Below are positions 2,307 to 7,116 of a stretch of DNA of 7,116 bases, piece by piece. Below the pieces are notes generated by a model. The model worked only from the letters and a program-made list of their open reading frames with translations, searched no databases and was not told the DNA's origin. The stretch is from Chloroflexota bacterium. GTDB lineage: Bacteria > Chloroflexota > Anaerolineae > Caldilineales > Caldilineaceae. Both the position numbers and the translations under genes were made by a program. Location: positions 1 to 7,116 of the forward strand of contig QEUW01000380.1 in assembly GCA_003577005.1 (NCBI GenBank), read 5' to 3'. Within the stretch, counting starts at the first letter, position 1; the number at the start of each line of letters is the position of its first letter.

Positions 2307-3314
2307 TTAAATCCGGATCCGCTCCACTTCTTCCAGGGTAATGGGATCCTGAGTGCGGTCATACAGCTTGGTAGTTTTCGGGGATTCGTGGGCGGCAATC
2401 TGCTGCGCCCGCTCGATCGTGCCGCCGTTCTCCAAATAGGTGGTGATACCTGTGGCCCGGAAGGTATGGCAGCAAATTTCTTCTGACAGCCGCGCCTGTC
2501 GCGCTCTGCGCTTGATCATCGCCCACACTTCGCTGCGGTGGAGCCGGCGCTCTGTCAACTGGCGGCGCTCGTTGAAACTGCGAAAGAGGGGCGTCTTCTT
2601 GGCGCCGGCGATGCCGGCCGCCGCTAAGTAGGCATCGAGGTACTCCTCGGCCTTGTGGTGCGCCGGCACTTCGTGATACTTGCCGCCTTTCTCATGCAGG
2701 CGGAACCACCAGCGCTTGCCCTTCTGGAAGTAGTCCTCCACGTTCATACCCACCACGGCGCTGACGCGGGCAAAGCTGAAGACCATCACGCCAATCAAGG
2801 CCCGGTCACGCAGGCCGATCACCCGACTGGTATCAATCACATCGAGCAACTCCCGGGTTTCTGCCGCCGAGAGCACCGGGGTCTTGCCGACCTTGATGAC
2901 ATATTTCGGCCCCTTGACGGCGGCGGCCGGATTGAGCGGCACGATTTGGCCGGTAACCAAATAATCAAACAACATGCGGATGGCGGCCAGGTGCTGTTTG
3001 ACGGTGGGCGGCTGCATCTCCGTGCCCAGCTCCTGCACATACTTGGCGACGAGCACGGGATTGACCTGAGTTAACTCGACGCCGTAGCGTGTACACCAAT
3101 AGGAGAAGCGGGTGACAGCTCGGTAGTAGGCCCGGCGGGTGTTGGGGTTGTGGATGTTGGCGGTGAAGAACTCGATGAAGCGATAGGCCGCTCCCTCGCC
3201 GGCCTGCACGAAGAGGGCCGGGATGCCACTATCAAGCGCTGCAAGTGAGTGCTGGCTGTCGGTTATGATCAGTGGGTTGTCCATGCCGTGATTATAGCAT
3301 AGGAGGTGAGACAT
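2307..3314 (-). CDS. Tyrosine recombinase / integrase
   Basis: This is a site-specific recombinase of the phage-integrase (XerC/D-like) family, which breaks and rejoins DNA through a covalent phosphotyrosine intermediate. The N-terminal SAM-like core-binding domain spans about 40-122 ('NTRRAYYRAVTRFSYWC', 'TVKQHLAAIRMLFDYLV'). The catalytic domain follows, with the full residue set visible: R183 ('FSFARVSAVVGM'), K209 ('HEKGGKYHEVPAH'), H283 and R286 ('CCHTFRATGITTYL'), H309 ('QQIAAHESPKTTKL') and nucleophile Y318 ('KLYDRT'). The 335-residue length is normal and the gene appears functional. The longest start is at 3314. M11 at 3284 (MDNPLIITD) is a strong alternative because an extended -10 box lies just upstream and would put the transcript start on that ATG. 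The gene is divergent from the toxin-antitoxin pair at 3453-4222. No attachment site is evident. The partner DNA and the reaction (integration, resolution, inversion) cannot be told from sequence alone. Confidence 0.93.
   Translation of the reverse strand: MSHLLCYNHGMDNPLIITDSQHSLAALDSGIPALFVQAGEGAAYRFIEFFTANIHNPNTRRAYYRAVTRFSYWCTRYGVELTQVNPVLVAKYVQELGTEMQPPTVKQHLAAIRMLFDYLVTGQIVPLNPAAAVKGPKYVIKVGKTPVLSAAETRELLDVIDTSRVIGLRDRALIGVMVFSFARVSAVVGMNVEDYFQKGKRWWFRLHEKGGKYHEVPAHHKAEEYLDAYLAAAGIAGAKKTPLFRSFNERRQLTERRLHRSEVWAMIKRRARQARLSEEICCHTFRATGITTYLENGGTIERAQQIAAHESPKTTKLYDRTQDPITLEEVERIRI
3284..3299 (-). promoter_or_regulatory. Extended -10 promoter candidate for the recombinase
   Basis: Read on the minus strand the sequence is TGCTATAAT then CACGGC then ATG. 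It contains a perfect TATAAT (3296-3291) with the upstream TG of an extended -10. No good -35 lies at the expected distance. Initiation about 7 bases downstream would fall on the A of the ATG at 3284, giving a leaderless message that starts the recombinase at its 11th codon. This is inferred from consensus only. Confidence 0.4.
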
Positions 3315-3414
3315 AACGCCCTTTATGTTAGAGCCTTTTTGTTGATAAGCACGGCGTCAGATTGAGTGTACTCACTGCCAATCCGTGAACAGTTGGACAT
3401 CCGACAACCGGCTA

Positions 3415-3444
3415 TTGACAACGGCCCCACAAAAAGAGTAGGGT
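3415..3444 (+). promoter_or_regulatory. Promoter candidate for the vapBC pair
   Basis: A consensus -35 (TTGACA, 3415-3420) is followed after 18 bp by TAGGGT (3439-3444), which matches TATAAT at its first, second and last positions. Initiation about 7 bases on would be near 3451, only 2 bases before the ATG at 3453, so the antitoxin could be read from a leaderless message. Vap antitoxins of the AbrB fold normally bind their own promoter with the toxin, so autoregulation here is expected but no clear operator repeat was identified. Confidence 0.4.
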
Positions 3445-3452
3445 AGTAGTAT

Positions 3453-3761
3453 ATGGAGTTGACCCACGCCGACCCCAGCACCGACATCCACAGAGGAGGG
3501 GATTACATCGGCACCGTGAACACCCAAGGCCGGGTGACCCTGCCCGAAGAAGTACGCAAGGCCTTACAGATTCACCCCCAGGATAAAGTGGTCTTTCGCA
3601 TCGCCGCAGGCCGGGTGGAGATCGTGGGTAAACTGCCGACGTTGGAAGAACTGGCCGGGTCGGTCACCCCCTTACAACCGCAGCAAGATCTGGAGGACGT
3701 GATTCAGGAGGCCAAGGCTGCCCACTATGACCGCCGCTTTACTCAAAAAATGCAACCGTGA
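3453..3761 (+). CDS. vapB: VapB-type antitoxin, AbrB/SpoVT fold
   Basis: This 102-residue DNA-binding antitoxin should neutralise the PIN toxin encoded next to it and repress the shared promoter. Residues about 20-58 match the AbrB swapped-hairpin domain ('GTVNTQGRVTLPEEVRKALQ' followed by 'DKVVFRIAAGRVEI'). Residues 62-102 form the expected toxin-binding tail ('LPTLEELAGSVTPL', 'DLEDVIQEAKAAHYDRRF'). The AbrB motif normally starts within a few residues of the N-terminus, but here about 20 extra residues precede it. A GTG at 3516 (V22) with AGGAGGGG at 3494-3501 upstream is an alternative start, though its 14-base spacing is long. The ATG at 3453 has no Shine-Dalgarno but fits a leaderless start. 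The stop overlaps the toxin start (GTGA), indicating coupled translation. The symbol describes the family role, not a proven orthologue. Confidence 0.88.
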   Translation: MELTHADPSTDIHRGGDYIGTVNTQGRVTLPEEVRKALQIHPQDKVVFRIAAGRVEIVGKLPTLEELAGSVTPLQPQQDLEDVIQEAKAAHYDRRFTQKMQP

Positions 3762-4222
3762 AGGACACGCACTTTCTTGACACCAACATCTTCCTCCGCT
3801 ATCTTACCGGTGATGATGATCAGAAGTACGAGGCCTGTCTGACCTTATTCCAGCAAGCCGAGCGCAACGAGATTAGCTTGGTCACGTCGGAGGGGGTGAT
3901 CGCCGAAGTGGTCCATGTGCTCAGTTCGCCCAAGCATTACCAGCTGTCCCGCTCTCGCATCCAAATCGCTCTCTCCCGCCTGCTCATCCTGTCCGGCCTC
4001 AAGGTGCCGCAGCGCCAGGTCTGCCTGCGGGCCCTCGACTTGTACACCAAGCACAACCTGGACTTTGAAGACTGTCTGTCCCTGGCCCACATGGAGCAGC
4101 AAAATCTCACGCAGCTCTACAGCTATGACCAGGGGTTTGATGCCATCGCCGGCGTCAGCCGCCTCGAACCGTCAGCCGCGGAAGCGAACGTGGTAGAATC
4201 ACGTCACCAAGAGCCGGCCTGA
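3758..4222 (+). CDS. vapC: VapC-type toxin, PIN-domain ribonuclease
   Basis: The protein is a 154-residue PIN-domain protein. Enzymes of this family are Mg2+-dependent endoribonucleases that cut tRNA or rRNA when released from their antitoxin. The acidic active-site residues are visible: D8 ('HFLDTNIFLRYL'), E50 ('VIAEVVHVL'), D105 with D102 ('LDFEDCLSLAHM') and D124 ('YSYDQGFDAI'). The PIN fold ends near residue 135. The last 20 residues (SAAEANVVESRHQEPA region) look like a poorly conserved extension. The start is a GTG that overlaps the antitoxin stop by 4 bases, with no Shine-Dalgarno of its own, so translation probably depends on ribosomes finishing the antitoxin. All active-site residues are intact. 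Its specific RNA target cannot be inferred. Confidence 0.9.
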   Translation: MKDTHFLDTNIFLRYLTGDDDQKYEACLTLFQQAERNEISLVTSEGVIAEVVHVLSSPKHYQLSRSRIQIALSRLLILSGLKVPQRQVCLRALDLYTKHNLDFEDCLSLAHMEQQNLTQLYSYDQGFDAIAGVSRLEPSAAEANVVESRHQEPA

Positions 4223-4248: not shown

Positions 4249-4512
4249 ATGCAGCGTTCACCCTCATTGATCACTACGCAGCGTGCGCATCCCGCCAGTC
4301 ACCAGCCGATGGAACTCTTGCCGGCCTCCTTGTTGCCGTACCGGAAGACCTGGCAGCCGATCATTCGTTCGCTGCCTACGAACACGTATCTGGTGGTGAC
4401 CAACTTAGACAATCCACCACAGAATGCTTCGATGCTGCGGTTGGTGCATCAGCTGCGCCGGCAAGGGGAGTCGGTCTATGTGCTGTCGGTGGGGGCAGTG
4501 GTAGAGGCCTGA
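4249..4512 (+). CDS. Small uncharacterised protein
   Basis: I do not recognise this 87-residue protein. Its codon third positions are GC-rich like the flanking genes (for example CTG GTG GTG ACC AAC), which supports real coding. The first 20 residues look poorly structured. The rest, from M21 at 4309, reads like a compact alpha/beta unit with 'LPASLLPYRKTWQPII', the strand-like 'NTYLVVTNLDNPPQN' and 'LRLVHQLRRQGESVYVLSVG', so 4309 may be the true start. Neither start has a clear Shine-Dalgarno. It follows the toxin gene by 26 bp on the same strand and could be co-transcribed with it. It ends 27 bp before the duplicated AGTA of the MITE-like element. Its short abrupt C-terminus ('VGAVVEA') could mean the gene was cut by a past rearrangement. 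Confidence 0.5.
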   Translation: MQRSPSLITTQRAHPASHQPMELLPASLLPYRKTWQPIIRSLPTNTYLVVTNLDNPPQNASMLRLVHQLRRQGESVYVLSVGAVVEA

Positions 4513-4539
4513 CAGGGGAAGGGGATAGCTCTATCTCCC

Positions 4540-4543
4540 AGTA
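4540..4543. repeat. Putative 4-bp target duplication, left copy (AGTA)
   Basis: AGTA directly abuts the outer end of the left terminal repeat of the MITE-like element and is repeated at the right end. A 4-base match alone has a 1 in 256 chance, so it is supportive only together with the terminal repeats. Confidence 0.55.
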
Positions 4544-4838
4544 GGACCAGCGGGCACATTCGCGCAGAAAGTTACGGTTTCGCAACAGCTTTCAACGGTA
4601 AAGCAACTCGATTTTGTCCTGCGTTGCTTAACTTTGATACCTTTACCGGCTTTTCTGCCCACAGATTGGCTGTTTTTATGCCGATGATAGGCGTCTGTAG
4701 CAAGGGTAAAGCAAATGACCGTTTTGTTGACCGCCTCACTGACAGCCACTGGCGAGGGTATCCAACAGTAAGTTGCGGTTCTGAATAGATTTTTGGATTC
4801 AAAACCGTAACTTACTGTTCAAATGCTCCCGCTGGTCC
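4544..4838. mobile_element. MITE-like element, 295 bp, 37-bp terminal inverted repeats
   Basis: The two ends form imperfect inverted repeats of equal length (4544-4580 and 4802-4838). They match at 31 of 37 positions when aligned without gaps by eye, both beginning GGACCAGCGGG and ending AAGTTACGGTTT. The four bases immediately outside each end are identical (AGTA at 4540-4543 and 4839-4842), as expected of a 4-bp target duplication. No credible gene lies inside. The interior is AT-richer than its neighbours and holds repeated GGTAAAG motifs and a strong hairpin at its right end. This is the pattern of a miniature inverted-repeat transposable element mobilised by a transposase encoded elsewhere. 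The ends do not match the insertion sequence at 1-1975, so that enzyme is not the partner. The family is unassigned. Confidence 0.75.
4764..4819. repeat. Strong hairpin at the right end of the MITE-like element
   Basis: The arms 4764-4786 and 4797-4819 are 23 bp long with two mismatches around a 10-base loop (AGATTTTTGG). The right arm is part of the right terminal repeat. The left arm is an internal, inverted extra copy of the same AACAGTAAGTT-CGGTT core, which also occurs near the left end (4565-4580). The core is therefore present three times in the element. It may be a transposase-binding motif, or the hairpin may fold in RNA read through the element. Confidence 0.75.
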
Positions 4839-4842
4839 AGTA
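4839..4842. repeat. Putative 4-bp target duplication, right copy (AGTA)
   Basis: AGTA directly follows the GGTCC end of the right terminal repeat, in the same orientation as the left copy at 4540-4543. Confidence 0.55.
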
Positions 4843-4899: not shown

Positions 4900-5223
4900 A
4901 TGGGAAGCCTCTTGATATGGTGTTGCTGTTTTATCTATAGTCGGGGTATGAGGAACAGATTAAAGCTTCAATTTTGTAGCACTCTTTTGATTGTTTTGGG
5001 ACTAGGTTTGGATATTTACAATTCAGGTTTCCGCCCATCTAGGGGGTCAGATGGTTTACTACTCTTGAGTGTATTGGTGATCCTGTGTTTTGTGATTGGA
5101 GGAATGTTATTAATGAGAGTAAAGCGACGGTCTATCTATTGGGGGCTATTAGGCTTGTTTGATATATGGGGATTGGCCTTAATGTTCATAGTATTACATG
5201 TTAAGCGTACACAGAAATCGTGA
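4900..5223 (+). CDS. Small AT-rich membrane protein, function unknown
   Basis: The protein has up to 107 residues and three predicted membrane helices (about 24-40, 52-72 and 80-100). Positively charged stretches lie between and after them ('MRNRLKLQ', 'MRVKRRSIYWG', 'VKRTQKS'), and a 'FRPSRGSDGL' loop follows helix 1. I do not recognise a named family and assign no function. M17 at 4948 is a likely alternative start giving 91 residues that begin MRNRLKLQ, a more usual N-terminus for such a protein. Neither start has a well-spaced Shine-Dalgarno (GGGG sits one base before 4948). The gene is about 40% G+C, counted over 4981-5160, against about 57% in the toxin gene. This marks it as a probable import. 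It is convergent with the surface-protein gene on its right. Confidence 0.6.
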   Translation: MGSLLIWCCCFIYSRGMRNRLKLQFCSTLLIVLGLGLDIYNSGFRPSRGSDGLLLLSVLVILCFVIGGMLLMRVKRRSIYWGLLGLFDIWGLALMFIVLHVKRTQKS

Positions 5224-6503: not shown

Positions 6504-7116
6504 CTATTGGCTGACCACAGGCAAAAAGATACGATGTTGCATAGCAGGCGAATCATTCCCTGCCGCACTGCCTGCAACCCCGGCGGATGGCGCCGCCGCC
6601 AGGAAGCCAGGTTGATGCCGGAAGTTGGCGCTTGTGAGCGTGGTCGCATTGTTTGGCAGGGCCGGTTCGCCTATGGTGCCTATCATTCGGAATGACGCCG
6701 ACTGCATGGCCGCGCCCGCGTTGCCTGAAGTAAGCCTACTGTTGACCAGTTCCGGTGTTACCGGGTTGGACGTTTCGGCAGGTGTATACCAGAATACATC
6801 TGCCCTACCATCGCCATTGAAGTCGCCAGTGAATGGCTTAAATGTTCCGTCTATACTGATAGAGGCTTGTTTAGTAAAAGTGCGGTTCCCGTTGCCCCAC
6901 CAGATCCAATCGGACTCTGAACCAGGGCGATACAAAAAGAGGTCTGCCCTGCCGTCGCCGTCGAAGTCGCCCACAAAGATCTCAAACGTGCCTATGATAT
7001 TGTCCACCTCGGTCTTGGTAAAAGTGCGGTTCCCGTTGCCCCACCAGATCCAATCGGACTCTGAACCAGGGCGATACAAAAAGAGGTCTGCCCTGCCGTC
7101 GCCGTCGAAGTCGCCC
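6504..7116 (-). CDS. VCBS/FG-GAP repeat exported protein, C-terminal part only
   Basis: The reading frame is open to the right edge, so the start and most of the protein are missing. The last 203 residues are present. Three repeat units start with calcium-binding-type motifs ('GDFDGDGRADLF' twice, then 'GDFNGDGRADVF') at an exact 48-residue period. Such repeats build beta-propellers in secreted surface proteins. A second region follows ('SASFRMIGTIGEPALPN...SANFRHQPGFLAA'). It resembles a short element often seen near the C-terminus of exported Chloroflexota-type proteins in the form 'GTIGQP...GFW'. The protein ends in a Gly/Ala/Ser-rich linker and a basic-hydrophobic tail 'HRIFLPVVSQ', possibly a sorting or anchoring signal. 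The role is unknown; adhesion or polysaccharide binding is a guess. It is transcribed towards the surface-protein gene on its left and may share a message with it. Confidence 0.87.
   Translation of the reverse strand, partial: GDFDGDGRADLFLYRPGSESDWIWWGNGNRTFTKTEVDNIIGTFEIFVGDFDGDGRADLFLYRPGSESDWIWWGNGNRTFTKQASISIDGTFKPFTGDFNGDGRADVFWYTPAETSNPVTPELVNSRLTSGNAGAAMQSASFRMIGTIGEPALPNNATTLTSANFRHQPGFLAAAPSAGVAGSAAGNDSPAMQHRIFLPVVSQ
6874..7116 (-). repeat. Tandem 144-bp repeat units, 99 bp identical
   Basis: Bases 6874-6972 and 7018-7116 are identical over 99 bp, offset by exactly 144 bp (48 codons). The second copy is cut by the window edge, so the identity may run further. The 45 bp between them differ from the matching segment of the next unit. 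A third, diverged unit begins at the same 144-bp offset (GGC codon at 6825-6827). Identity at silent positions indicates a recent duplication or gene conversion inside the VCBS-repeat gene. Confidence 0.92.

Follow-up and report, generated by a model that had tools for sequence, protein, structure and literature searches.

What kind of mobile element gave rise to a gene-less 295-bp sequence on a Chloroflexota contig, and which transposase could have moved it? The element occupies positions 4544-4838 of the window, the 7,116-bp stretch of contig QEUW01000380.1 that was analysed here, and its ends are 37-bp inverted repeats. The original prediction described a non-autonomous miniature element whose parent would share its GGACCAGCGGG ends, and both the anatomy of the element and the matches to its ends agreed with that description. 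The two arms are identical at 31 of 37 nt, as predicted, and the best of 60 trials in which the 120 surrounding bases of each arm were shuffled reached 21/37. The outermost 11 bases of both repeats are identical, and there are six mismatches between the arms. A 24-nt degenerate end pattern, allowing up to three mismatches, matched the window only at the two ends of the element (shuffle expectation 0.01). The length of 295 bp, previously assigned to the interior, is that of the full element, and 221 nt separate the arms. The motif core AAGTTRCGGTT is indeed present at three places, once in each arm and once in an inverted copy near the right arm. The longest open reading frames in, or nearly in, the element were minus-strand frames of 72 and 76 aa, neither of which had a Pfam match at E up to 0.1, in keeping with the claimed absence of a gene. 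The element lies between open frames at 4249-4512 and 4900-5223 and disrupts neither. The features discussed below are listed in Table 1.

Table 1 Features of the miniature element and its flanks, in window coordinates
Feature	Position	Strand	Basis
Left copy of the target duplication, AGTA (alternative: CAGTA, 4539-4543)	4540..4543	.	direct reading
Left terminal inverted repeat, presumed resolvase-side end (IRL)	4544..4580	+	end comparison
Putative res region, aligning collinearly with the L018 tnpR-tnpA spacer (6799-6944)	4592..4736	+	score 160, 0/500 shuffles as high
Inverted half-sites GTAAAGCAA / TTGCTTAAC, putative accessory resolvase site	4598..4632	+	
Putative res site I, near-palindrome GTAAAGCAAATGACCGTTTTGTTGAC, 26 bp	4706..4731	+	
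Inner box of the right repeat in a second, inverted occurrence; the palindrome is centred about 47 bp from the tip	4765..4781	+	15/17 matches, 0/5000 shuffles
Right terminal inverted repeat, presumed transposase-side end (IRR)	4802..4838	-	end comparison
Right copy of the target duplication, AGTA (alternative: CAGTA, 4838-4842)	4839..4842	.	direct reading

The window holds several other features. Positions 1-1975 are occupied by an insertion sequence whose 22-bp ends are perfect and which encodes a 609-aa transposase; the contig begins exactly at its left end. Its ends read GAGAGTGCGTAATAGACGTTTG and differ from those of the miniature element, as had been stated. The 609-aa transposase scored 51.1 bits against the NCBIfam ISL3 model, below the cut-off of 180, and showed helix-turn-helix matches in mid-protein; tblastn found no relatives of it in the genome contigs (16 pattern matches) or in plasmids. 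A tyrosine recombinase of the XerC/XerD type is encoded at 2307-3314. At 3453-4222, a PIN-domain gene is overlapped by one that resembles antitoxin genes (it matches PrlF and MazE, below the curated cut-offs), and the two likely form a toxin-antitoxin pair. Positions 6504-7116 encode an FG-GAP repeat protein whose repeat units appear near-identical in DNA and extend past the contig end. A 315-aa protein of the window had 446 relatives; of the 120 that were listed, three name an organism, two Caldilineaceae and one Chloroflexi bacterium, which makes a Chloroflexota host most likely.

Comparison of the element with 72,556 plasmid records by blastn yielded matches in 213 records at E up to 0.1, with an identity of 90-95% in 77 records and 80-90% in 136. 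Among the 20 matches listed, query coverage was 13-25% and fell at the element ends; no place in the 213 matched records covered 80% of the 295-bp query. None of 50,697 phage records was matched. Two plasmids, Acaryochloris pREC3 (L004) and Kovacikia pA (L006), carry the end-matching sequence directly 3' of a Tn3-family transposase gene. Both of the branch TnpAs that were scanned exceeded the cut-off of 500 for NCBIfam model NF033527 (798.7 and 774.3 bits), and transposase P0001 resembles the solved Tn4430 transposase. A tblastn search with the Acaryochloris transposase matched at least 5000 records. Among the 60 matches listed, near-full-length relatives at 58-81% came from Kovacikia, Alteromonas, Salinimonas, Vibrio, Klebsiella, Escherichia, Enterobacter and Aureispira, followed by Simkania (48%), Legionella antarctica (36%) and others at 33% or less. 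Within the same 60, relatives down to 58% were named only 'Tn3 family transposase' where annotated, and some remoter matches were named TnAs1.

The fetched loci were scanned with a consensus of the repeats, and two facing ends were found in 12 elements (L003, L004, L006, L013, L014, L015, L017, L018, L019, L020, L021 and L025). The ends of the Simkania element L020 agree with the consensus at just 25/38 and 23/38 positions. L002, L005, L007, L008, L016, L022, L026 and L027 had one end, or ends on one strand only, and gave no pair. Among the transposons L004, L006, L014, L017, L018 and L019, those with both ends measure 3851-8985 bp. The 8985-bp transposon (L014/L015, 4028-13012) carries chromate-resistance genes, a tyrosine recombinase and an annotated DNA-binding protein, with no annotated serine resolvase. 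In a tree of 16 transposases, the seven TnpAs of GGACC-ended elements, from cyanobacteria, Gammaproteobacteria and Bacteroidota, fell on one side of a branch with support of 100/100; the tree was midpoint-rooted, contained one very long outgroup branch and left out the broken Simkania transposase. Tn3 ends usually start with GGGG. In the outgroup, CCCC appears no more than about 45 bases after the genes of Hafnia, Aeromonas (TnAs1) and Paraburkholderia, and was taken as an unpaired GGGG-type end. These matches identify the element ends as those of the Tn3-family branch with GGACCAGCGGG.

The sequence AGTA does flank the element on both sides, as predicted. The right flank reads GGTCCAGTAC, which fits the AGTA duplication as read; because of this same flank, a 5-bp CAGTA duplication with one terminal C lost from the right repeat (GGTC|CAGTA) would fit equally well. 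In a single window copy the 4-bp and 5-bp readings are indistinguishable, and TIMEs are characterised by duplications of 5 or 6 bp. Among the 12 two-ended relatives, five had a 5-bp duplication (L003 ATATT, L015 TTATA, L017 ATCCA, L018 TAATA and L020 AAATT), seven had none and none had a 4-bp duplication, counts that include the close-relative pairs L014/L015, L018/L021 and L003/L025 and are not independent. The expectation of a parent with 4-bp target duplications was therefore not upheld by the relatives.

The original prediction described the interior as free of genes. No gene is recognisable in it, but it is not featureless, and it carries a putative resolution site. Weak blastn matches to window positions 4706-4736 lay inside the tnpR-tnpA spacers of relatives. 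The interior was aligned with these spacers by the Smith-Waterman method and evaluated against dinucleotide shuffles (n = 500). The Escherichia albertii spacer (L018) scored 160, the top shuffle reaching 136, and the L021 spacer scored 155 with no shuffle as high; L018 and L021 are near copies and count as one line of evidence. Scores as high were reached by 1/500 shuffles for the L012 spacer (136), 4/500 for L004 (98) and 13/500 for L020 (102). The spacers of L017 (75, 182/500) and of L006 (85, 146/200 in a separate 200-shuffle run) matched at chance level. In L016, the segment that separates two recombinase genes gave 127 on the opposite strand (0/200 shuffles). As a control, twelve 220-base pieces of the L018 transposase gene gave a top score of 110.

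The alignment with L018 is collinear across 145 bases of the window, and its core is the near-palindrome GTAAASAAAACGACCGTTTTSTTTAC. Both strands of 33 sequences (318,433 bases) were searched for this palindrome. At up to six mismatches it was found only in L004, L012, L018, L020, L021 and the window, once in each; these occurrences differ by 0-3 mismatches, and the next-best match, in L014, had seven. No shuffled window contained it at up to three mismatches, and its exact form had no match in the viral contigs. The version in the window is three mismatches away from the form that neighbours serine recombinase genes at all five other sites. In L004, L018, L020 and L021, the adjoining gene carries the annotation recombinase family protein. 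The L012 palindrome is flanked by what reads as a 190-aa serine resolvase frame and by a frame that reads as the start of a Tn3 transposase. No GGACC end was found in L012 (best 22/38), and the res core therefore extends outside the GGACC branch. The context of the L012 palindrome (3061-4160) suggests that resolution modules shift between Tn3 branches.

We read the palindrome as putative res site I and take the inverted half-sites to belong to the accessory sites. In L018, the palindrome is the portion nearer tnpA, and the accessory portion is nearer tnpR. The order in the window is the same, and the left end of the element would therefore be the tnpR side. The letters of the repeats agree: the left repeat has GGTTTC, as do the distal ends of L017 and L018, and the right repeat has GGTTTTG, as do their tnpA ends. 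The layout is accordingly written IRL-res-IRR, with a polarity that is presumed from these likenesses.

A second miniature element with the same ends, L003, was found on Salmonella plasmid CP053317. It is 291 bp long and flanked by the 5-bp duplication noted above. L003 and its Pantoea stewartii relative L025 are similar in size to the window element and also have no annotated gene, and L003 likewise has a res-like interior. L003 differs from the window element in that its interior is L017-like and the inverted copy of the inner box is absent at the fixed spacing. Its interior scored 237 against the L017 spacer (top shuffle 118, 0/500 as high), whereas against each of the five remaining spacers between 105 and 278 of the 500 shuffles equalled its score. 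The window element matches other spacers, so the two miniature elements of the branch resemble the res of different parents. Plasmid records matched by L003 numbered 110, and only three held at least 80% of it, namely L003 itself and two P. stewartii plasmids at 93.8%. Many of the remaining records, plasmid F included, held the 58-bp end only. Partial matches to L003 occurred in 76 of 5426 complete E. coli genomes, and none of the 5426 held most of it. On the E. coli plasmid F (L026 2501-2558, plasmid positions 2631-2688), the 58-bp L003-type end has no annotated feature beneath it, and such ends also occur on other E. coli plasmids. A further sequence with two ends and no duplication, L013 (665 bp), weakly matched the L017 spacer (3/500 shuffles as high).

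The inverted copy beside the right repeat corresponds to the inner 17 bases of that repeat (the inner box), and the shuffles against which it was evaluated were mononucleotide shuffles. The right end can form a DNA hairpin of -17.8 kcal/mol (z -5.73). Such copies were then sought at 25 ends, a set that omits near copies and late additions (L008, L011, L015, the distal L021 end, L022 and L025-L027). At 13 of the 25, a copy scoring 11 or more was present at an offset of 56 or 57, and the other 90 offsets together gave three such scores. Seven of the 13 copy-bearing ends were subjected to a shuffle test, in which the observed score was reached 0 to 15 times in 5000. These 13 comprise the left and right ends of the elements from Alteromonas, Klebsiella and E. 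albertii, the tnpA end of the Aureispira element, one end each from Vibrio, E. coli, Shigella, Shewanella and viral contig L002, and the right end in the window. The copy is not a general rule, for the other 12 ends do not have it; they include the two ends of L003, of L004, of L006, of L013 and of L020, as well as the left end in the window.

Where the copy is present, it may form a second TnpA contact and make the transposon end bipartite. The Alteromonas type has a divergent box, ACGAAAACCTACGG, and its inverted copy is altered accordingly. The enterobacterial ends show a looser match of box and copy, and several fit the copies of other lineages equally well or better; covariation of the two appears only partial. 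On the tnpA side of L017 and L018, the copy falls within tnpA, where coding may constrain the sequence. A broader proposal is that ends in this branch can be bipartite, consisting of a 37-38 bp repeat and an inverted inner-box copy centred about 47 bp from the tip, the two co-varying in some lineages at least. TnpA would then engage a pair of opposed boxes at each end, and a palindromic res core, common to the branch in four phyla and to at least one Tn3 transposon outside the branch, would let distant relatives move and resolve miniature IRL-res-IRR derivatives. We put this forward tentatively and consider it possible but, taken as a whole, doubtful. The possible bipartite end is the feature of the branch that holds most promise.

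Searches for further copies covered the genome contigs and a set of viral contigs. An interior 22-mer of the element had no match in the genome contigs, and an interior 25-mer, the end pattern and a two-ended gapped pattern had none in the viral contigs; these searches thus revealed neither a second copy nor an empty site, and no Chloroflexota parent. A looser first version of the end pattern matched two viral contigs. One, L002, has a true end adjoining a Tn3 transposase fragment. In the other, L001, the sequence diverges from the repeat straight after the pattern, and this match was taken as chance. A TnpA pattern gave five matches in viral contigs, none of them a relative.

TIMEs carry terminal repeats of the Tn3-family type, span 50-500 bp and lack a transposase gene. 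The window element is 295 bp long with open reading frames of no more than 76 aa, and its repeats match the ends of transposons that encode a Tn3 TnpA. We are highly confident that it is a TIME, a non-autonomous derivative of a Tn3-family transposon of the GGACCAGCGGG-ended branch that was reduced to IRL-res-IRR; this confidence concerns its identity and not its present mobility. TnpA binding, mobility and resolution are what we infer from this architecture. A full-length relative would provide, in trans, the TnpA that binds the 37-bp repeats, and replicative transposition would join the element to its target and leave a duplication of 4-5 bp. The cointegrate would be resolved at the internal res site by a trans-acting serine resolvase, and the inverted inner-box copy beside the right end might assist as an additional point of TnpA contact. 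Several findings were counted against this assignment: the 4-bp duplication as read, found in 0/12 relatives; the seven relatives with no duplication; the chance-level scores against the L017 and L006 spacers; the palindrome, which is not private to the GGACC branch; and the outcome of the searches above for a second copy, an empty site and a Chloroflexota parent.

The exact 4-bp AGTA duplication would suit a MITE from some unrelated IS family that makes 4-bp duplications, with ends that resembled those of Tn3 by chance or convergence. We regard this origin as very improbable, given the end matches of 80-95% in 213 plasmid records, several of which lie immediately 3' of Tn3 tnpA genes, and the likeness of the interior to a Tn3-family res. 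An IS parent with 4-bp duplications was set aside because the ends belong to a Tn3-family branch with 5-bp duplications. It is also highly improbable that the sequence is a transcribed structured element, such as a hairpin regulator, a terminator or an RNA, rather than a transposon. The RNA fold of the whole element (z -6.00) and the long DNA hairpin at its right end would speak for such a role, but any MITE with long inverted ends folds, the window had no Rfam match at gathering thresholds, and no promoter- or terminator-like site was found within the element. An RNA or terminator role, having neither Rfam nor terminator support, was rejected.

A closer alternative is that the element is an immobile relic, an internally deleted or recombined Tn3 transposon. 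This shares the origin of the TIME and differs on present mobility. The six mismatches between the ends, the single copy seen and the terminal base that may have been lost all accord with a relic, which we consider rather unlikely though far from negligible. The identical outer 11 bases and the matching flanks argue that the element inserted as a unit, and are silent on whether it can move at present.

The element can be compared with several described systems. The Tn3 family comprises seven subgroups (PMC7157771). TIMEs as defined in PMC4133298 have 38-bp Tn3-type ends, are mostly 262 bp long and have 5- or 6-bp duplications; they are usually single copy, and duplications flank 4/18 of them (PMC4133298). 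Described TIMEs come mainly from Gammaproteobacteria, with one on a plasmid of an uncultured bacterium, as presented in PMC4133298 and PMC13367494. Among the papers listed for Chloroflexi with MITE or Tn3, none described such an element in Chloroflexota in its title or the opening of its abstract; one of them, on a bioreactor, mentions both MITEs and Chloroflexi (PMC12542641). The GGACCAGCGGG string occurred in the text of five papers, in one of them within a primer, and the titles of the others are unrelated. Listings of literature on Tn5401 binding sites and Alteromonas chromate transposons contained nothing bearing on the element.

Judged by its sequence alone, with an interior like a Tn3-family res and a putative resolvase crossover site, the element is a res-bearing TIME of the GGACC-ended Tn3-family branch, a kind already known. 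It is set apart by its place on a Chloroflexota contig, and the branch transposases, where annotated, are only generically named. It illustrates how far a Tn3-type element may be reduced, down to a res between two ends, and the second inverted box beside the end gives the branch a feature that can be tested. Gene-less elements of this type escape gene-based annotation.

The full-length GGACC-ended transposons of Acaryochloris (L004), Kovacikia (L006), Alteromonas (L014), Klebsiella (L017), E. albertii (L018) and Aureispira (L019) share the 37-bp ends with the window element, and L018 and L004 also share its res palindrome; unlike it, all six carry tnpA and a resolvase or recombinase gene, and have the greater lengths given above where both ends are present. 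TIME1-TIME4, MITESen1 and TIME244 resemble it in their Tn3-type ends and size class (244-262 bp versus 295), and differ in having duplications of 5-6 bp versus AGTA, 4 bp as read (PMC4133298, PMC13367494). TIME244 also has a putative res, of the Tn21 type, and is traced to the Tn21 subgroup (PMC13367494). IS101, compared here by its description only, is likewise small, lacks a transposase, has Tn3-family ends and an internal res, and needs both TnpA and TnpR in trans; the res of IS101 is functional (PMC13367494). Its partner is Tn1000, of the Tn3 subgroup, whereas the ends of the window element belong to a different branch and its contig is from Chloroflexota.
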